DNA from: Paracoccus aminophilus JCM 7686
Lineage (GTDB): Bacteria > Pseudomonadota > Alphaproteobacteria > Rhodobacterales > Rhodobacteraceae
Direction: 5' to 3'
Assembly: GCF_000444995.1 (NCBI RefSeq)
Contig: NC_022041.1
Location: 532,001-596,000, forward strand
Length of the DNA stretch: 64,000 nt
The notes below the pieces were generated by a model. It did no database searches, was not told the DNA's origin, and saw only the letters and a list, made by a program, of their open reading frames with translations. Shown one piece after another: positions 17,742 to 34,529 of this stretch (position 1 is its first letter; every line of letters starts with the position of its first letter). Both the position numbers and the translations under genes were made by a program.

Positions 17742-19004
17742 ATGCGCAGAGTAGTCGTCACCGGTCTGGGGATGGTCACACCGCTGGCCTCGGGCGTCGA
17801 GGAAACCTGGACCAGACTTCTGGCCGGCGAATCCGGGGCGGGTCCGATTACCCGTTTTGACGCGAAAGACGTCGTGACGAAATATGCCTGCGAGATTCCG
17901 TATGGCGACGGCACTGAGGGCACGTTCAATCCCGACGATTGGATGGAGCCGAAAGACCGCCGCAAGGTCGATGATTTCATTCTTTACGGCATGGCCGCCG
18001 CGACGCAGGCCGTGCGCGATTCCGGCTGGGAGCCCCAGACCGAGGAAGAGAAAGAGCGCACCGGCGTTCTGATCGGCTCGGGCATTGGCGGGCTGAATTC
18101 CATCGCGGAAACCGCCGTGCTGATCAAGGAACGCGGCCCGAAGCGGGTGTCGCCCTTCTTCATCCCGGGCGCGCTGATCAACCTCGTCTCGGGCCAGGTT
18201 TCGATCCGTTTCGGCTTCAAAGGCCCGAACCATGCAGTTGTGACCGCCTGTTCGACCGGCGCCCATGCGATTGGCGATGCGGCGCGTTTGATCATGTGGG
18301 GCGACGCCGATGTCATGGTCGCAGGCGGCACGGAATCGCCGATCTGCGAAATCGGCATCGCGGGTTTCAACGCTTGCAAGGCGCTCTCGACCGCGCGCGG
18401 CGACGAGCCGAGCAAAGCCAGCCGCCCCTGGGACGGCGACCGTGACGGGTTCGTCATGGGCGAAGGCGCGGGCGTCGTCGTGCTCGAAGAATACGAGCAC
18501 GCCAAAGCACGCGGCGCCAAGATCTATGCCGAGGTGCTGGGCTATGGCCTGACGGGCGATGCCTATCACATCACCGCGCCCTCGGATGACGGCGATGGCG
18601 GCTTCCGCTCGATGCAGGCGGCGCTGAAGCGTGCCGGGATCGAACCGGGTCAGCTTGACTACATCAACGCGCATGGCACCTCGACCATGGCCGATACGAT
18701 CGAGCTGGGCGCGGTCGAGCGGATGCTGGGCGATGACGCTAAAAATGTCGTGATGTCGTCGACGAAATCCTCGATCGGCCACCTTCTGGGCGCTGCCGGG
18801 GCGGTTGAGGCGATTTTCTGCATTCTCGCGATTCGCGACCAGATCTGCCCGCCGACGATCAACCTCGATGCGCCGGCGCGGGAAACTCCGGTCGATCTGG
18901 CCGCGAATGCCGCCGTGCGTCGCAAGGTTGATTATGTGCTCTCGAACAGCTTCGGCTTTGGCGGCACCAATGCCAGCCTTGTCCTTGGCAGGGTTGCAGA
19001 CTGA
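17742..19004 (+). CDS. fabF: 3-oxoacyl-ACP synthase II (beta-ketoacyl-ACP synthase, KAS II)
   Basis: A 420-residue condensing enzyme that elongates fatty acids with malonyl-ACP. The active-site triad is visible: Cys170 in TACSTGAHAIGDA, His in NAHGTSTM, and Lys/His in SSTKSSIGHLLGAAG. The C-terminal NSFGFGGTNASL loop is also present. ATG 17742 is preceded by AGGAAGGA. Unlike many genomes, acpP is not directly upstream; the divergent telA gene is. The stop overlaps the mltG ATG by one base (TGATG), so the two are coupled. Confidence 0.96.
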   Translation: MRRVVVTGLGMVTPLASGVEETWTRLLAGESGAGPITRFDAKDVVTKYACEIPYGDGTEGTFNPDDWMEPKDRRKVDDFILYGMAAATQAVRDSGWEPQTEEEKERTGVLIGSGIGGLNSIAETAVLIKERGPKRVSPFFIPGALINLVSGQVSIRFGFKGPNHAVVTACSTGAHAIGDAARLIMWGDADVMVAGGTESPICEIGIAGFNACKALSTARGDEPSKASRPWDGDRDGFVMGEGAGVVVLEEYEHAKARGAKIYAEVLGYGLTGDAYHITAPSDDGDGGFRSMQAALKRAGIEPGQLDYINAHGTSTMADTIELGAVERMLGDDAKNVVMSSTKSSIGHLLGAAGAVEAIFCILAIRDQICPPTINLDAPARETPVDLAANAAVRRKVDYVLSNSFGFGGTNASLVLGRVAD

Positions 19005-20185
19005 TGTGGCGTAACCTGGCGTCCAACCTGCTGACCCTTCTGGTCTTGGCGCTCGTCGCCGCGGCCGGAGCGATTGCCTGGGCCAAACATGCGTATGTCG
19101 CGGAAGGCCCAAGCAAGATTCAGGCCTGTGTGCAGGTTCCGCCGGGGGCAAGTCTCAGCGCGGTCAGCCAAAGGCTGGCCGAGCAGGGCGTTGTGTCCAA
19201 TGCCTATATCTTCCGCGCCGGGGCCGATTATTCGGGCAAGGCGCGGGATTTGAAATATGGCTCGTATCTTGTGCCCGCGGGCGTGAGCATGGAGCAGGTC
19301 GCGGCGATGATCACCGCAGGCGGGCCGAGCACCTGCGGCACCGAAGTGACCTTGCGCATCGGTGTGCGCGAGAACTCGATCCTTCTGCGCGACATGGACC
19401 CGGCGACGGGGCAATATGCCGAGCTGATGAAATACGATCCCGCCACCATGCCCGAGCCGGTGGGCATCGCCAATGCGGTCGAAAAGCCCGACGCCCGTCT
19501 GCGCATCACCATCGCCGAGGGCGTGACCAGCTGGCAGATCGTCGAAGGGTTGAAAGCGGCCTCGTTTCTTGCGGGCGATGTTGCGAAGATCCCGGCCGAG
19601 GGCTCGCTCGCGCCCGATACCTATGAGGTCAAGAAGGACGACGCTCGGCAGGCTCTGCTGGACGCGATGGCGAACAAGCAGTCGGTGATCTTGCAAAACG
19701 CCTGGGACGGCCGCGCGCCGGATCTGCCTTACAAGACGCCCGCCGAGGCTTTGGTCATGGCCTCGATCGTCGAGAAGGAAACCGGGGTCGCCGCCGAGCG
19801 TCCGGTCGTCGCCTCGGTTTTCGTGAACCGGCTCAATCAGGGCATGAAGCTCGAGACCGACCCGACGGTGATCTATGGCGTGACCAAGGGGCAGGCGGTG
19901 CTTGATCGCGGGCTGCGCCGGTCCGAGCTGCGCACGCGCACGGCCTATAACACCTATGTCATCCAAGGCCTGCCGCCGACGCCGATCGCCAATCCGGGCA
20001 AAGCCGCCATCGAGGCGACGCTGCATCCGGCGGCGACGGATTACATCTTCTTCGTGGCTGACGGCACGGGCGGTCATGCCTTTGGCCGCACGCTGGAAGA
20101 GCATAACGCCAATGTCGCGCGTTGGCGCGAGATCGAGGCGCAGCAGGGCCAGCCCACCGACAGCCCGGTGCAAGGCGCGAATTGA
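19004..20185 (+). CDS. mltG: endolytic murein transglycosylase MltG
   Basis: A 393-residue inner-membrane lytic transglycosylase (YceG family) that cuts nascent glycan strands and sets their length. A signal anchor at about residues 9-28 is followed by a LysM-like subdomain (PPGASLSAVSQRLAEQGVV). The catalytic domain contains ASIVEKETG with catalytic Glu about 257, and the family motif DPTVIYG. The fabF-mltG pair is commonly seen in alphaproteobacteria. A strong terminator follows. Confidence 0.94.
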   Translation: MWRNLASNLLTLLVLALVAAAGAIAWAKHAYVAEGPSKIQACVQVPPGASLSAVSQRLAEQGVVSNAYIFRAGADYSGKARDLKYGSYLVPAGVSMEQVAAMITAGGPSTCGTEVTLRIGVRENSILLRDMDPATGQYAELMKYDPATMPEPVGIANAVEKPDARLRITIAEGVTSWQIVEGLKAASFLAGDVAKIPAEGSLAPDTYEVKKDDARQALLDAMANKQSVILQNAWDGRAPDLPYKTPAEALVMASIVEKETGVAAERPVVASVFVNRLNQGMKLETDPTVIYGVTKGQAVLDRGLRRSELRTRTAYNTYVIQGLPPTPIANPGKAAIEATLHPAATDYIFFVADGTGGHAFGRTLEEHNANVARWREIEAQQGQPTDSPVQGAN

Positions 20186-20226: not shown

Positions 20227-20262
20227 AAAGGCCCGGACCCCGTGATGGTCCGGGCCTTTTTT
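20227..20262 (+). terminator. intrinsic terminator after mltG
   Basis: A long stem (AAGGCCCGGACC pairing with GGTCCGGGCCTT, loop of about 7 bases) runs into a T tract. It isolates the fabF-mltG transcript from the GTA cluster that begins downstream. Confidence 0.9.
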
Positions 20263-20375: not shown

Positions 20376-20405
20376 ATGTTGCACCGCCTCGCACCGCTGA
20401 AAACT

Positions 20406-20434
20406 TTGACTTGGCGAACGGTCGAAAGTAGATT
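20406..20434 (+). promoter_or_regulatory. candidate sigma70-type promoter of the GTA cluster
   Basis: TTGACT (20406-20411), a 17-bp spacer and TAGATT (20429-20434) lie 104 bp upstream of the first GTA gene. It is the best match in the 20263-20537 gap. In R. capsulatus the GTA promoter is activated by GafA; whether that factor acts here is inference. Confidence 0.45.
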
Positions 20435-20459
20435 TTAGACATGCTGGGAGAAATGGGCG

Positions 20460-20492
20460 AGCGGCCGGGTCACTGACCTTGGGCCGCTTTTT
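20460..20492 (+). terminator. terminator-like hairpin in the GTA leader
   Basis: AGCGGCC (20460-20466) pairs perfectly with GGCCGCT (20482-20488), followed directly by TTTT. The structure lies between the candidate promoter and the first GTA gene, with no reading frame in between. It could act as an attenuator that must be overcome for cluster expression, or end a short leader RNA. Confidence 0.5.
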
Positions 20493-20537
20493 CATGGCTC
20501 GCTCGTGCGGACAGGCACCGAGGGCAGGGCAGCACGC

Positions 20538-20903
20538 ATGACAATGACTTTCGATCCGGGGGCCATGCCCTTGGGAGAACCGGTCGGCCAGAGCGCCGCA
20601 ACCGGCGAGGCCGCGATGGATGTGGTGAGCATCGCGGATGAGTTGTTCCATTCATTCGCCTCGGATCTGACGCGGCTCAGGCTGCGCATTCAGGCCGGGG
20701 CCACTGACGACATCAAGGAAAGCGCCAAGCTTGTCCGCGACCTGCGGGCGGCGACGCAGCTTGTTCTGGAAGAGAGGAACCGCGTTGACAAGTTACGCAA
20801 GGACGCTGCCGGAAGCGTCGGGGGCGGGGCTCTCGACCTTGACGCGGCACGAGATGAAATCGGGCGCAGGCTGGCTCGCCTCCGCCGAGCCTCAGGAGGT
20901 TGA
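20538..20903 (+). CDS. GTA gene 1: small terminase-like protein
   Basis: About 121 residues, start ATG 20538 (an in-frame ATG at 20544 is equally possible). The middle and end are helical and charged (ELFHSFASDLTRLRLRI, LRDLRAATQLVLEERNRVDKLRK). Position directly before the large terminase, and size, match RcGTA g1, which acts as the small terminase of GTA packaging. It overlaps gene 2 extensively in another frame. It has no recognisable DNA-binding motif, in keeping with GTAs packaging DNA without sequence specificity. Confidence 0.72.
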   Translation: MTMTFDPGAMPLGEPVGQSAATGEAAMDVVSIADELFHSFASDLTRLRLRIQAGATDDIKESAKLVRDLRAATQLVLEERNRVDKLRKDAAGSVGGGALDLDAARDEIGRRLARLRRASGG

Positions 20904-22194
20904 CGCTTTTCTGGGGGGCTTGTCGGACAATGCTCTGGCAAGCCTGCCCTGGCTGTTCGATTTCTGGGCGCTGCCGCATCAGCTGCCGCCCGAGGGGGAT
21001 TGGAAGAGCTGGGTGATCATGGGCGGGCGCGGTGCGGGCAAGACCCGCGCCGGGTCCGAATGGGTGCGTCGGCAGGTCGAGGGGGCAAGCGCCGACGCAC
21101 CCGGGCGGGCAAAGCGCGTGGCTTTGGTCGCCGAGACCTTCGATCAGGGCCGCGATGTGATGGTCTTTGGCGATTCCGGGATCATCGCTTGCTCTCCGCC
21201 CGATCGTCGTCCGATCTGGGAGGCGGGGCGGCGCCGGTTGGTCTGGCCGAATGGCGCGGTGGCGCAGGTCTTTTCCGCCCATGAGCCCGAGGCATTGCGC
21301 GGGCCGCAATTCGATGCGGCCTGGGTCGATGAGCTCGCGAAGTGGAAGAAGGCAGAAGAGACCTGGGACATGCTGCAATTCGCATTGCGTCTGGGCGAGC
21401 ATCCTCAGCAGGTCATCACGACGACGCCGAAGAATGTCGGCGTCTTGAAGGCGATCTTGCGCAATCCCTCGACGGTCGCGACCCATGCGCCCACTGAAGC
21501 GAACCGGGCCTATCTGGCCGAGAGCTTTCTGGCCGAAGTGCAGGCGCGATATGCGGGCACGCGGCTGGGGCGGCAGGAGCTCGAGGGGGTGCTGCTTGAG
21601 GATATCGAGGGCGCGCTCTGGACGACGGCGATGATCGAGGGGGCGCGGGTAGAGGCCGCGCCTGCGCTGGATCGGATTGTCGTGGCGGTCGATCCTTCGG
21701 TGACGGGCGGCAAGGCGAGCGATGCCTGCGGGATTGTCGTCGCGGGCGTCGTCACGGCGGGCGCGCCGCAGGAGTGGCGGGCCTATGTGCTTGAGGATGC
21801 AACGGTGCGGGGCGGGCCTTCGGATTGGGCGCGGGCGGCGATTGCAGCCATGGCGCGGCATGGTGCCGAGCGGCTGGTCGCTGAGGTCAATCAGGGCGGC
21901 GATCTGGTTGAGAGTGTCATTCGCCAGATCGATCCTTTGGTGCCCTTCCGCGCCTTGCGCGCGGGCCGCGGCAAGGGGCTGCGCGCCGAGCCGGTTGCGG
22001 CTTTGTATGAGCAGGGCCGCGTCCGGCATCTGCGCGGTCTGGGCGCGCTCGAGGATCAGATGTGTCGCATGACCGTGCGGGGCTTTGAGGGCAAGGGCTC
22101 TCCTGACCGGGTCGATGCTCTGGTCTGGGCCATCCATGAGCTGATGATCGAGCCTGCGGGCAGTTTCCGGCGACCGCAGGTACGCGGGCTTTAG
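20785..22194 (+). CDS. GTA gene 2: large terminase (packaging ATPase/nuclease)
   Basis: About 469 residues. I chose the TTG at 20785 because AGAGAGGA sits 6-8 bases upstream; ATG 20854 is the alternative. Walker A is GGRGAGKT (about 80-87), Walker B is AAWVDELAKW, and the C-terminal RNase H-like nuclease has VVAVDPSVTGG and the acidic DRVDALVWAIHEL. It packages host DNA into the GTA head and is the RcGTA g2 homologue. The start lies over 100 bp inside gene 1, implying strong translational coupling. Confidence 0.93.
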   Translation: MTSYARTLPEASGAGLSTLTRHEMKSGAGWLASAEPQEVDAFLGGLSDNALASLPWLFDFWALPHQLPPEGDWKSWVIMGGRGAGKTRAGSEWVRRQVEGASADAPGRAKRVALVAETFDQGRDVMVFGDSGIIACSPPDRRPIWEAGRRRLVWPNGAVAQVFSAHEPEALRGPQFDAAWVDELAKWKKAEETWDMLQFALRLGEHPQQVITTTPKNVGVLKAILRNPSTVATHAPTEANRAYLAESFLAEVQARYAGTRLGRQELEGVLLEDIEGALWTTAMIEGARVEAAPALDRIVVAVDPSVTGGKASDACGIVVAGVVTAGAPQEWRAYVLEDATVRGGPSDWARAAIAAMARHGAERLVAEVNQGGDLVESVIRQIDPLVPFRALRAGRGKGLRAEPVAALYEQGRVRHLRGLGALEDQMCRMTVRGFEGKGSPDRVDALVWAIHELMIEPAGSFRRPQVRGL

Positions 22195-22212: not shown

Positions 22213-22263
22213 GCCGGGGGCTGCGCGCCCCCGGACCCTGCGGGATATTTCGGCATGAAAGAC
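22213..22263 (+). repeat. dispersed hairpin + GGGATATTT element, copy D (inside GTA cluster)
   Basis: A GC hairpin (CCGGGGGC...GCCCCCGG, 22214-22234) is followed by CGGGATATTTCGGCATGAAAG. The same arrangement is found after purS and after the DUF1476 gene. It fills much of the 143-bp gap between GTA genes 2 and 3, an unusual place for a possible terminator. Confidence 0.6.
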
Positions 22264-22337
22264 GGGGTGGATGTCCGCGGATGTCCCTCGAGGGTCGCGG
22301 GTGTCGCGGCCCTTTTTCTTTGCAAGAGGAGGGACGG

Positions 22338-30163: not shown

Positions 30164-30615
30164 CGCCGGATCTGGGGAGAGCGGATGTGGTGGCCGAGGC
30201 GCGGCGCTGGATCGGCACGCCCTATGTCCATCAGGGCTCGGTTTGCGGCGCGGGGGCGGATTGCCTTGGCCTGATCCGGGGCATCTGGCGCGCGCTTCAT
30301 GGCCACGAGCCCGAGGCTTTGCCCGCCTATACGCCCGATTGGGGCGAGCTTGGGCAGGGTGAACTCGGGCGGAGCGAGCTCTTGCTGGCCGGGCTCATGC
30401 GCCATCTGCGCCCGGCCGGGCGGGAAGCTCTGGGCGATGTGCTGGTGTTTCGCATGAGGACCGGCGCGATTGCCAAACATCTGGGACTGCTCACCCAAAC
30501 CGGCGCGGGCGCGCGCTTCGTCCATGCCTATGACCGGCATGGCGTGGTCGAAAGCCCGCTCTCGGGCCCGTGGCGGGCGCGGATCGCGGCACGCTTCATC
30601 TTTCCGCCGCTTTAG
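30160..30615 (+). CDS. GTA gene 14: NlpC/P60 cell-wall peptidase
   Basis: A 151-residue NlpC/P60-fold peptidase. The catalytic Cys35 is in GADCLGLIRGIW, the His is in AKHLGLLT, and a polar third residue follows in FVHAYDRHGV. It is predicted to open peptidoglycan during DNA delivery from the tail tip. ATG 30160 overlaps the gene 13 stop. It is the RcGTA g14 homologue. Confidence 0.9.
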   Translation: MTPDLGRADVVAEARRWIGTPYVHQGSVCGAGADCLGLIRGIWRALHGHEPEALPAYTPDWGELGQGELGRSELLLAGLMRHLRPAGREALGDVLVFRMRTGAIAKHLGLLTQTGAGARFVHAYDRHGVVESPLSGPWRARIAARFIFPPL

Positions 30616-30638
30616 CATTTCACGAAAGGACCAATCTC

Positions 30639-33600
30639 ATGGCGACGATACTTCTGGCAGCGGCAGGGGCCTCGATTGGCGCGGGATTTGGCGGCGCGGT
30701 GCTGGGCCTCTCGGGCGCGGTGATCGGGCGCGCCGTCGGGGCGACGGTGGGCCATATCATCGATCAGCGCCTGCTCGGGCAGGGCTCGAAAGCGGTCGAG
30801 ACCGGGCGCATCGACCGCATGCGCATCCAGACCGCTGGCGAGGGCACGCCGGTTGCGCGCCTCTGGGGTCAGATGCGGATGCCGGGCCATGTCATCTGGG
30901 CCGCGCCTCTGGTCGAGACGCGCAAGACGCAGGGCGGCGGCAAGGGCTCGGGCCCGCGCGTGACCGAAGTGGGCTATCGGTTGAGCTTTGCCGTGGCGCT
31001 TTGCGAGGGGCCGATCCTCGGCATCGGCCGGATCTGGGCGGATGGCGAAGAGGTCTCGCCCGATGATTTCGACCTGCGCGTCTATCGCGGCTCGGAAAGC
31101 CAGATGCCCGATCCGGTGATTGCCGCGATCGAGGGCGAGGCGGCTCCGGCCTATCGCGGCATTGCCTATGTCGTGCTGGAGGATCTGGCGCTCGAGCGCT
31201 GGGGCAATCGCGTGCCGCAGCTGAGTTTTGAGGTTCTGCGCGCCGCCAAGGGCGGGCGCGGTCTGTCGCGCGAGGTCGAGGCGGTCGCGCTGATCCCGGC
31301 GACCGGGGAATATGCGCTGGCCACGACTGCGGTGAGCTATGATCTGGGCGAAGGCGAGGTTCAGGTCGTGAACCAGAACCTGCCTGCGGGCGTCACCGAT
31401 CTGGGCAACTCGCTGCGCAGCCTGCGGCGCGAACTGCCGCGCGTGGGCTCTGTCTCGCTGGTGGTTGGCTGGTTTGGCGATGACCTGCGCGTCGGCCAGT
31501 GCAAGCTGCGTCCGAAGGTCGAGGATGTCAGGCGCGAGGGCCATGAGATGGCCTGGCGCGCGGGCGGGATCGGGCGCGGGGCGGCTCAGGAAGTGGCGCG
31601 GGTCAATGACCGTCCGATCTATGGCGGCACCCCAGCCGATGGCGCGGTGATCGAGGCCTTGCGCGCGATTGCGGCAGGCGGGCAAAAGGCGGTCTTCTAT
31701 CCGTTCATCCTGATGGAGCAGCTTGCGGGCAATGCGCGCCCCGATCCCTGGAGCGGCGCGCCTCATCAGCCGGTCATGCCCTGGCGCGGGCGCATCACCA
31801 GCTCAATCGCGGCGGGTCGCGCGGGCAGTCCCGATGGCACGGCGCAGGCGGCGGCAGAGGTCGCGGCCTTTTTCGGCACCGCAAAGCCCGGTGATTTTTC
31901 ACGCGCGGGCGGCGGCGTCCATTACAGCGGGCCCGAGGAATGGTCCTATCGCCGCTTCATCCTGCATTATGCGCATCTCTGCGCCGAGGCGGGCGGCATT
32001 GATGCCTTCCTGATCGGCTCGGAGATGATCGGGCTGACGCAGATCCGGGGCGCGGGCCACAGCTTTCCAGCCGTGGCCGCCTTGCGGGCGCTTGCGGCGG
32101 ATGTGCGCGGGATTTTGGGCGAGAGCGTCAAGATCGGCTATGCGGCGGATTGGTCCGAATATTTCGGCTATCAACCGGGCGGCGGCGATGTGCATTTCCA
32201 CCTCGACCCGCTTTGGGCCGATGAGAATATCGATTTCGTCGGGATCGACAATTACATGCCGCTGTCGGATTGGCGCGAGGGCGAGGATCATCTCGACGCC
32301 GGTTGGCGCCGCATCACCAACCCGGATTACCTCAAGGCCAATGTCGCGGGTGGCGAGGGCTATGACTGGTATTACGCCCGCGATGAGGATCGGCTGGCAC
32401 AGCTGCGCAGCCCGATCAGCGATGGCGCTTATGATGAGGCATGGGTCTGGCGCTACAAGGATATCCGCAACTGGTGGGCGAACCCCCATCACGACCGGAT
32501 CGGTGGCATCCGCAAGGCGCAACCGACCGCTTGGGTGCCGGGCACGAAGCCGGTCTGGTTCACGGAAATGGGCTGCGCCGCGCTTGATCTTGGCACCAAC
32601 CAGCCGAACAAGTTCCTCGATGCGATGAGCTCGGAATCGCAGCTGCCCCATTTCTCGCAAGGGCGGCGCGATGATGTCATGCAGGCGGCCTATATCCGCG
32701 CGATGACAGAGTTCTGGGGCGATCCGGCCAACAATCCTGCGCGACCGGCCTTTGGCCGCACCGGGGCGGGGCGGATGATCGACATGAGCCGCGCCCATGT
32801 CTGGTGTTGGGATGCGCGGCCCTATCCGGCCTTTCCCGGGCGCGGGGATCTGTGGTCGGACGGCGCGGCTTGGGAACGCGGCCATTGGCTGAACGGACGT
32901 GCCTCGGTGGTGCCTCTGGCGGATGTCGTGGCCGAGATCTGCCGCGAGGCCGGTGTCGCGAGCTTTGATGTGAGCGGGCTTTCCGGTCTCGTGCGCGGCT
33001 ATGTGCCGGGCGGTGGCGACAGCGGGCGCGCGGCCTTGCAGCCCTTGATGCTCGCGCATGGCTTTGATGCGGTTGAGCGCGACGGCAGTCTGCGCTTTCA
33101 GATGCGCGATGCCCGCGTCGCTGCTGAGATCGGGCTGGATGATCTGGCGCTTGCCGATCAGGTCAGTGGGATCGAGGCTTTGCGCGCTGCCGATGCCGAA
33201 ATCTCGGGCCGGATGCGCGTCACCCATATCGAGGCGGGCGCCGATTATGCCGCCTCGACCGCCGAGACCATGCTGCCGGGCGGCGAGTTTGCCAGGGTTT
33301 CGGGCAGCGAGCTTGCCATGGCGCTGACCCGGCCCGAGGGGCGGGCGATGGCCGAGCGTTGGCTCTCCGAGGCGGTGATCGCGCGCGACAGCCTGCGCTT
33401 CGCCCTACCGCCCTCGCGGGCCGAGCTTGGGCCGGGCGATGTCTTGCGCGTCGATGAAGGCAAGGGCGAGGCCCGGCGGTGGCGGATCGACCGGGTGGAA
33501 CGAGGCGCGGCCCAGATCATCGAGGCGGTCCGGGTCGAGCCGGGCGTCTACCGCGCGGCGCGCAGCTCGGAGATCACGCATCCGGTTCGTGCCTATAGTC

Positions 33601-34529
33601 CGGCAATCCCGCTTTGGCCGGTCTTTCTCGATCTGCCGCTGCTCAGGGGCGACGAGGTGCCCCATGCGCCGCATCTTGCGGTGACGGCGACGCCCTGGCC
33701 GGGGCAGGCGGCGGTCTGGATGTCGGAGGAGGCCCTGGGCGGCTATCAGCTGAACTGCCGCGTGCCGCTGCGCTCGGTCATGGGGCGCACGGTGACGCCG
33801 CTTGGCCGGGCGCGGCCGGGGGTCTGGGACCGTGGCCCGGCCCTGCGGCTGCGTATGAAGGGCGGCCAATTGAAATCCGCGACTGCGAAGGCGCTGATGG
33901 CGGGGGCCAACCTTCTGGCGATCGGCGATGGCACGCCGGAAGGCTGGGAGCTGTTGCAATTCGCCGAAGCGCGGCTGATTGCGCCCAATCTGTGGGAGAT
34001 CGGCCTGCGCTTGCGCGGGCAGGCGGGCACGGATGCCTTCATGCCCGATGTCTGGCCCGCGGGCAGTCTGGTCGTGCTGCTGGACGGCGCGGCGGTGCAG
34101 GTCGATCTGGCACCGAGCGCGCGCAATCAGTCGCGGCATTGGCGGATCGGACCGGCGCTGCGCGGACCCGATGACCCGAGCTACCGCCATCAGCAACAGG
34201 CGTTCCGGGGCGCGGGTCTGCGCCCGCTCTCGCCGTGCCACCTTCGCCTTGAGGGACTGGAGGCGCGCTGGTTGCGGCGTGGTCGGATCGCGGCCGATGG
34301 CTGGGACGGCCCGGATATCCCGCTTGGCGAGGCCCGCGAGCGCTATCTGGCGCGGCTGGTCCGGGACGGGCGTGTGCTGGGGCAGGAGGTCCTGTCCGAG
34401 CCGCGCTGGTCGATCCCGCAAACCCTGTGGTCCGCCGCATTAGGTGGCGGACCCTTCACGCTCGAAGTCGCTCAATTGTCCGATGAATTCGGCCCGGGCC
34501 CCTTTGTCAGGAGAGACATCCATGTCTGA
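30639..34529 (+). CDS. GTA gene 15: baseplate megatron / host-specificity protein
   Basis: A 1296-residue protein starting at ATG 30639 (MATILLAAAGASIGAG) with GAAAGGA upstream. The N-terminus is hydrophobic and Gly-rich (about 3-40), resembling a pore-forming segment. A TIM-barrel-like domain (GTA_TIM, about 430-700: AWVWRYKDIRNWW, KPVWFTEMGC) and a phage-tail domain (about 780-950) follow. It is the central tail-tip protein through which DNA passes. The frame is intact. It overlaps the DUF2793 gene by eight bases. Confidence 0.93.
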   Translation: MATILLAAAGASIGAGFGGAVLGLSGAVIGRAVGATVGHIIDQRLLGQGSKAVETGRIDRMRIQTAGEGTPVARLWGQMRMPGHVIWAAPLVETRKTQGGGKGSGPRVTEVGYRLSFAVALCEGPILGIGRIWADGEEVSPDDFDLRVYRGSESQMPDPVIAAIEGEAAPAYRGIAYVVLEDLALERWGNRVPQLSFEVLRAAKGGRGLSREVEAVALIPATGEYALATTAVSYDLGEGEVQVVNQNLPAGVTDLGNSLRSLRRELPRVGSVSLVVGWFGDDLRVGQCKLRPKVEDVRREGHEMAWRAGGIGRGAAQEVARVNDRPIYGGTPADGAVIEALRAIAAGGQKAVFYPFILMEQLAGNARPDPWSGAPHQPVMPWRGRITSSIAAGRAGSPDGTAQAAAEVAAFFGTAKPGDFSRAGGGVHYSGPEEWSYRRFILHYAHLCAEAGGIDAFLIGSEMIGLTQIRGAGHSFPAVAALRALAADVRGILGESVKIGYAADWSEYFGYQPGGGDVHFHLDPLWADENIDFVGIDNYMPLSDWREGEDHLDAGWRRITNPDYLKANVAGGEGYDWYYARDEDRLAQLRSPISDGAYDEAWVWRYKDIRNWWANPHHDRIGGIRKAQPTAWVPGTKPVWFTEMGCAALDLGTNQPNKFLDAMSSESQLPHFSQGRRDDVMQAAYIRAMTEFWGDPANNPARPAFGRTGAGRMIDMSRAHVWCWDARPYPAFPGRGDLWSDGAAWERGHWLNGRASVVPLADVVAEICREAGVASFDVSGLSGLVRGYVPGGGDSGRAALQPLMLAHGFDAVERDGSLRFQMRDARVAAEIGLDDLALADQVSGIEALRAADAEISGRMRVTHIEAGADYAASTAETMLPGGEFARVSGSELAMALTRPEGRAMAERWLSEAVIARDSLRFALPPSRAELGPGDVLRVDEGKGEARRWRIDRVERGAAQIIEAVRVEPGVYRAARSSEITHPVRAYSPAIPLWPVFLDLPLLRGDEVPHAPHLAVTATPWPGQAAVWMSEEALGGYQLNCRVPLRSVMGRTVTPLGRARPGVWDRGPALRLRMKGGQLKSATAKALMAGANLLAIGDGTPEGWELLQFAEARLIAPNLWEIGLRLRGQAGTDAFMPDVWPAGSLVVLLDGAAVQVDLAPSARNQSRHWRIGPALRGPDDPSYRHQQQAFRGAGLRPLSPCHLRLEGLEARWLRRGRIAADGWDGPDIPLGEARERYLARLVRDGRVLGQEVLSEPRWSIPQTLWSAALGGGPFTLEVAQLSDEFGPGPFVRRDIHV

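Follow-up and report, generated by a model that had tools for sequence, protein, structure and literature searches.

GafZ of Caulobacter binds between the -35 and -10 elements of the GTA promoter, associates with the elongating RNA polymerase and bypasses terGTA, as reported by Tran and Le (2024; PMC11150451). In the same report GafZ resembles the C-terminus of Rhodobacter capsulatus GafA, GafA as a whole is similar to GafY plus GafZ, and GafA is suggested to have a possible unrecognised antitermination activity. A near-consensus -35 element rendered the Caulobacter promoter independent of GafYZ, at an about sixfold lower activity (PMC11150451). For R. capsulatus, only one of five probes was reported to be bound by GafA, that from 76 to 125 bp upstream of g1, which contains the -10 element and the RNA-seq start (Fogg 2019; PMC6363796). 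The C-terminal domain of GafA binds the promoter/start fragment and the N-terminal part binds specifically on either side of it (PMC9638019); a contact to the omega subunit of RNA polymerase and recruitment of the polymerase were described as well (Sherlock 2022; PMC9638019, as cited in PMC11150451). GafA has so far been described as a transcription activator of the archetypal GTA. A limited literature search yielded neither an assay of GafA antitermination nor a prior description of a GTA leader terminator; the word 'terminator' is absent from the main text of PMC6363796, and 'terminat' from that of PMC9638019. AlpA of Pseudomonas aeruginosa recognises GGGACG in the -35/-10 spacer and depends on a -10-like CACGAT at -1 to +5, in which A+1 and T+5 are essential (PMC9371919). 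AlpA bypasses the terminator tB, which lies immediately before alpB and whose first base is 54 nt downstream of the start (PMC7969949).

The window, a stretch of 64,000 nucleotides from Paracoccus aminophilus JCM 7686, contains an R. capsulatus-type GTA cluster with gene 1 (TerS in the R. capsulatus naming; PMC9638019), TerL, portal, protease, HK97-type capsid and later genes. A sequence-only reading of this DNA had described a promoter with its spacer, two stem arms, a T run and the ATG of gene 1; all of these were in place when the sequence was re-read. The features of the locus are:

19004..20185, + strand: YceG-like gene (PF02618, Pfam match), upstream of the leader
20227..20259, + strand: terminator-like hairpin behind the YceG-like gene (-25.1 kcal/mol, T-tail)
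20406..20411, + strand: -35 element TTGACT
20415..20420, + strand: spacer box CGAACG (consensus CGNRCG), candidate GafA binding element
20429..20434, + strand: -10 element TAGATT, after a 17-nt spacer
20440..20445, + strand: start-site hexamer CATGCT (consensus CANGCT), candidate -10-like sigma-dependent pause element
20447..20459, + strand: conserved leader box GGAGAAATGGGCG, part of which pairs with 20491-20500 as the outer stem
20460..20492, + strand: intrinsic terminator candidate, stem 20460-20466 (AGCGGCC) / 20482-20488 (GGCCGCT)
20467-20471 / 20475-20479, + strand: upper stem of the terminator candidate
20488-20492, + strand: T-tract of the terminator candidate, five T
20502..20522, + strand: second conserved leader hairpin CTCGTGC / GCACCGAG, upstream of gene 1
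20538..20903, + strand: GTA gene 1 (ATG 20538), no Pfam match, stop shared with the open reading frame 20505..20903
20731..22194, + strand: open frame of TerL (terminase large subunit; PF03237, PF17289), the true start may be further in
22290..22314, + strand: second terminator-like hairpin, with T-tract, in the TerL-portal gap
30570-34529: GTA_TIM/tail protein

From the spacing and from the R. capsulatus RNA-seq data, transcription is predicted to start at about 20440-20442. We consider it likely that this leader is an antitermination switch of the Q/AlpA type run by GafA, with termination, pausing, loading and read-through as predicted steps. A sigma70-type promoter (TTGAC-17-TAGAaT) would initiate near 20441, sigma region 2 would re-bind CANGCT as a -10-like element and the RNA polymerase would pause. 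GafA (DUF6456), seated on the CGNRCG box between -35 and -10, would load onto the paused polymerase, and the loaded enzyme would pass the +50 hairpin and T-tract as well as the terminator behind TerL, leading to expression of the cluster. Unloaded polymerase would halt at about +50 and leave a short leader RNA only. In Paracoccus and its relatives, a protein that allows the polymerase past this leader stop probably turns on the production of the phage-like GTA particles.

The region 20440-20500 folds with -28.6 kcal/mol (z -3.9; one of 200 shuffles was as good). Between 19000 and 36000 the terminator-like pattern was not in excess (13 occurrences against 12.8 expected), hence the single genome could not decide; promoter-like sites numbered 3 against 1.4 expected in the same interval. 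The hairpin gains its significance from its conservation among relatives. Eighty loci were fetched from public genomes via TerL, the best 56 by rank being Paracoccus records. One locus with only 229 nt upstream (L057) was dropped, and the other 79 together with the window formed the P set of 80 leaders, anchored by a regular expression for the leader box with up to 2 substitutions, which all 80 contain. This alignment across relatives, proposed as a check in the sequence-only reading, revealed hairpin and T-tract in every one of the 80 leaders, their end lying some 50 nt behind the predicted start. Both features were present in 74 of 2400 windows of 58 nt drawn at random from these loci, and in 127 of 895 dinucleotide shuffles. 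The layout was constant: TTGAC, a 17-nt spacer, TA...., 5-6 bases, CATGCT, GGGAGARRTGGGCAAG or close to it, hairpin, T-tract, gene 1. Most P leaders have a second hairpin, CTCGTG/CACGAG, between T-tract and gene 1. In the three-helix structure of outer stem, terminator stem and second hairpin, 96.8% of the cells are paired, compared with 41-67% in slid versions, and double changes occur in 6 of 18 pairs; none of 500 shuffles reached this covariation or the paired fraction. The structure topped all 500 shuffles on four of five measures, the pair-type count being reached by 2 of 500. Related sequences inflate covariation counts, therefore the spread across genomes and the turnover of the stem weigh more. 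RNAalifold on alignment A2 suggested, in addition, that the start hexamer pairs at long range with the second hairpin. Rfam had no match at gathering score in the window and none at E up to 1 in 20380-20560, and a riboswitch or other known RNA family was dismissed on this ground. A riboswitch or classical attenuator was also rejected with regard to space, about 18 nt lying between hexamer and stem, and no alternative pairing was evident by eye.

A covariance model of the leader (R1) was searched at E <= 0.01 against 149 family genomes, each from a different genus apart from one pair. It gave 89 matches in 87 of the 149 genomes; TerL was present in 135 (E <= 1e-60). Eighty-five of the 89 matches precede TerL on its strand by 157-512 nt, and one further match (G160) lies 84 nt from a contig end. 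Three matches away from TerL (G197:C233, G190:C36, G175:C18; E 0.002-0.006) were left out of the family leaders. The F set comprises 85 leaders, from the 86 genomes with a leader minus our own; 4 of them are identical to P leaders over 90 nt, so P and F are not fully independent. In its own genome the leader is the one significant R1 match, the next having an E value of 0.13. Among IMG/VR stretches carrying the leader-box pattern, TerL was found within 900 nt in 46 of 48. A class-level search matched 4 of 240 genomes: our own, two of the same family (G269, G154) and G464. The match in G464 was taken as false, since it lies inside an AraC-like frame (by eye) and the genome is absent from the 51 with TerL (E <= 1e-80). 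A clear leader was absent in 32 of the 135 TerL genomes, i.e., the 49 without a near R1 match minus 17 described below, and this counts against the switch. Some GTA clusters are decayed.

The upstream DNA of these 49 TerL genomes was scanned with a promoter-and-start matrix that holds no hairpin information. Seventeen leaders scored above 15, a cut chosen after the scores had been seen, while the best of 49 antisense controls reached -3.0; at the script cut of -10.0, 25 loci pass, 15 of them with a hairpin. Between +14 and +72, 14 of the 17 carry hairpin and T-tract, and most of these stems differ from that of Paracoccus. The other three miss the hairpin pattern by an A before the T run (L156), the lack of a T-tract (L164) or a fold of -9.5 (L168). 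Overall, a GC-rich stem followed directly by a T-tract, the sequence signature of an intrinsic (Rho-independent) terminator, stands between promoter and first gene, as in switches of the Q/AlpA type, in 173 of 179 leaders (80/80 P, 82/85 F, 11/14 diverged). The 85 F and 14 diverged leaders in this count came from the structure-aware model, the 80 P and 17 matrix-found leaders being the less biased sets; the 14 belong to the 49 loci, all of which entered the matrix scan. Selection as a terminator best accounts for a structure that persists, with T's following it, while its letters change. In G269 (L327), hairpin GCGGCC..GGCCGC and five T are kept and neither TTGAC promoter nor box is recognisable, which counts against the switch. 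The matrix was also applied to 29 class-level TerL loci (29 of the 50 besides our own, 28 of them outside the family). Positive scores outside the family were 18.1 (L329), 9.6 (L350) and 0.8 (L333), with antisense controls up to -0.6; inspection by eye of the following 75 nt showed no T-tract hairpin in any of these three. L327, the sole family locus among the 29, scored -13.2 at the place of its R1 match.

Several loci of the family are rearranged. In G067 (L145, L150; G067:C7) the cluster is interrupted soon after gene 1 begins, by what looks like a mobile element (by eye); the promoter is kept and the 5' arm of the hairpin is degraded, a single observation that fits a loss of selection. In one genome of the genus (L151; G082:C18) the leader now immediately precedes a protease remnant and the capsid gene, an arrangement that a deletion would leave. 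TerL matches end at residue 202-203 in ten of the 149 family genomes, with the frames continuing (436-878 aa). In G169 (Pfam; tblastn), G203 and G142 (tblastn), TerL up to about residue 202 is fused in frame to GTA TIM/tail from about 657-663; the cluster has collapsed, and the leader still precedes the TerL-tail chimera (L356, 454-2964, minus strand; L357; L137).

All 80 P leaders have TTGAC at 34 or 35 nt ahead of the hexamer, and 82 of 85 family leaders contain it. Among leaders of the two commonest spacings, the spacer box CGNRCG begins 9 nt downstream of the first T of TTGAC in 67 of the 80 P and 57 of the 79 F leaders, with G in the second place in 92-100% and C in the fifth in 96-100% across three tabulated groups. 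The AlpA site GGGACG occurs in 4 of 179 GTA spacers. The promoter and box pattern is found exactly only here in our own genome; with one mismatch allowed it is no commoner than the reversed control (2 against 3), and this counts against the switch. A recurrent CAACCnnnGGTTTAG-like stretch was seen by eye just upstream of the -35 element in many of the loci L002-L081, among those listed; it could be a site of the GafA N-terminus or of IHF. The hexamer reads CATGCT in 36, CAAGCT in 33, CACGCT in 5 and CAGGCT in 4 of the 85 family leaders, besides rarer forms. Its A2, G4 and T6 are kept in 85 of 85 and ATG, by T3, in 38; this conservation is biased by the search model, which was derived mainly from CATGCT leaders, yet T3 is nearly as strong in that model (78/80) and was lost in family leaders. 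In the full set of 179 leaders, 177 retain A2 and T6 and 123 retain ATG. Because A2 and T6 persist while ATG is lost, the hexamer is not a start codon. The conserved A and T are the bases that sigma reads in a -10 element. The hexamer sequence fits a -10-like pause element of the Q/AlpA type, at which pausing is predicted.

Orthologous data exist for R. capsulatus. In the leader of strain SP108 (L073, with the g1 start taken as ATGGACATG), the span reported to be bound by GafA holds the spacer box at -120, the -10 element at -106 and the hexamer at -95, most of TTGAC (-129) lying outside. It ends one base before the hairpin arm (-75), and the T-tract runs from -51. The conserved CGNRCG box within the published fragment bound by the C-terminal domain is thus a candidate GafA site. 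A transcription start behind the T run (20492) had been named as one finding that would speak against a leader terminator; in this orthologous leader the reported start lies in the probe 76-125 bp upstream of g1, ahead of the hairpin (PMC6363796).

Our own genome encodes one DUF6456 protein, a frame of 428 aa whose N-terminal HTH match is weak and below cut-off, and through it a GafY/GafZ homologue is present. The DUF6456 search also matches Caulobacter vibrioides, and we take R. capsulatus GafA and GafZ to carry this domain. Of the 149 family genomes 137 encode DUF6456, and all 8 same-genus genomes whose TerL is missing or broken retain it, so the co-occurrence does not link gafA to the leader and was set aside as uninformative. 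In two of these 8 genomes, with broken clusters (G021:C58, G067:C9), the DUF6456 frame is short, at 203 and 286 aa; the remaining six have 350-423 aa. This looks like a decaying N-terminus.

A T-tract hairpin follows TerL within 240 nt in 68 of 80 loci, against 25 of 240 mononucleotide shuffles; hairpins anywhere in the 240 nt were counted, and one of 81 sources was dropped for length. R. capsulatus (L073) also has a T-tract hairpin between TerL and portal. The two further hairpins inside the cluster at 22213 and 25510, which the sequence-only reading had cited as in keeping with its idea, have no T-tract behind them (by eye) and are not supported as terminators. Its main inference, a leader terminator requiring antitermination, is strongly supported by the comparison: the position of the terminator outlasts the turnover of the stem sequence, and the promoter carries matches to the other two cis-elements of the Q/AlpA type.

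The hairpin could be a working terminator although GafA only activates initiation via omega; it would then merely cut leaky expression, with read-through resulting from strong initiation or translation coupling. The reported contact of GafA to omega and the recruitment of RNA polymerase (PMC9638019) agree with this. Initiation control alone would leak, however, because a near-consensus -35 freed the Caulobacter promoter from GafYZ, and such a TTGAC stands in 80/80 P and 82/85 family leaders. The spacer box, the start hexamer and the hairpin behind TerL moreover fit a processive antiterminator, and we regard initiation control by itself as unlikely, though the strongest of the competitors. A 5' mRNA stabiliser, a processing site or a translational structure of g1 would account for an outer stem that encloses the T-tract and for a second hairpin adjoining g1, both conserved with covariation. 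A stabiliser needs no T-tract, yet one follows directly in the 173 leaders and was kept where the stem had been replaced, which makes such a role improbable.

Ribosome-mediated attenuation would place the hairpin under the control of a leaderless leader peptide from 20441 (ATG CTG GGA GAA ...). The sequence-only reading had noted the lack of a leader reading frame; literally, a frame of 11 codons starts at 20441, and the statement holds in so far as its ATG is not conserved. Of the 80 P leaders 78 have an ATG at the predicted start, 32 of them with a frame of 10-14 codons, but the frame lengths scatter from under 10 to over 42 codons, and only 38 of the 85 family leaders have the ATG while A2, G4 and T6 of the hexamer are kept. 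There being no conserved leader reading frame, the leader peptide was rejected and attenuation appears very improbable. Still less credit, next to none, is given to the idea that the hairpin ends the upstream yceG-like gene: it shares the intergenic region, but lies downstream of the GTA promoter, and the gene has its own hairpin (20227-20259). A separate upstream hairpin is found in 47 of 80 P loci and missing in 33; position and separate hairpin led us to reject this candidate.

Some observations count against the antitermination switch as well. The conservation of leader box and outer stem exceeds the demands of a bare terminator. The omega route of GafA (Sherlock 2022), set against the omega-independent AlpA, also counts against the switch, likewise the binding of N-terminal GafA on both sides of the C-terminal site. 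Also unfavourable is that GafZ, according to Tran and Le (PMC11150451), is without structural likeness to Q or AlpA. More tentatively, and with slightly less than even confidence, the proposal may be extended to the Rhodobacteraceae: GTAs of the R. capsulatus type would be run like a lambdoid late operon, the promoter firing without GafA and the polymerase stopping at about +50 in nearly all cells, with a small leader RNA as product. GafA would represent a new, DUF6456-based class of Q-like antiterminators that gives the few producing cells their full-length transcripts. Leader box, outer stem and second hairpin would together form a new RNA element aiding the loading of GafA/Nus. This would explain the silence of a near-consensus promoter in most cells. 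For GafA the leader offers a concrete cis-target of antitermination, with single-base predictions for the spacer box, A2 and T6 of the hexamer, the stem and the T-tract.

Among the known systems, Caulobacter crescentus has its GafZ site in the -35/-10 spacer, the place of the candidate GafA box here, and GafZ bypasses terminators in the GTA cluster. It differs by three 150-bp terGTA repeats after the first gene and by a degenerate -35 element (PMC11150451), whereas the Paracoccus cluster has one compact hairpin before gene 1, a near-consensus -35 element and a T-tract hairpin behind TerL. Repeats like terGTA after the first gene were not found in the window, where gene 1 (to 20903) overlaps the TerL frame (from 20731) and leaves no room. 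For the BaGTA of Bartonella, the title of Korotaev et al. (eLife 2025) states that antitermination integrates the expression of GTA loci. The late promoter and tR' of phage Q systems have a binding element in the -35/-10 spacer, a -10-like pause and a terminator before the late genes (PMC6606751), the binding sequence being another one. AlpA/alpB shows the same combination of an antiterminator site in the spacer, a -10-like element at the start site and a terminator before the first gene, and also controls a lysis programme in a subset of cells (PMC7969949, PMC9371919). AlpA needs no omega, in contrast to GafA, which works through omega and is a putative antiterminator. We know of no relation between GafA and AlpA. 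If the proposed switch is true, the GTAs of about 100 genera (86 + 17 of 149 genomes) would join the phage late operons and the AlpA lysis switch.
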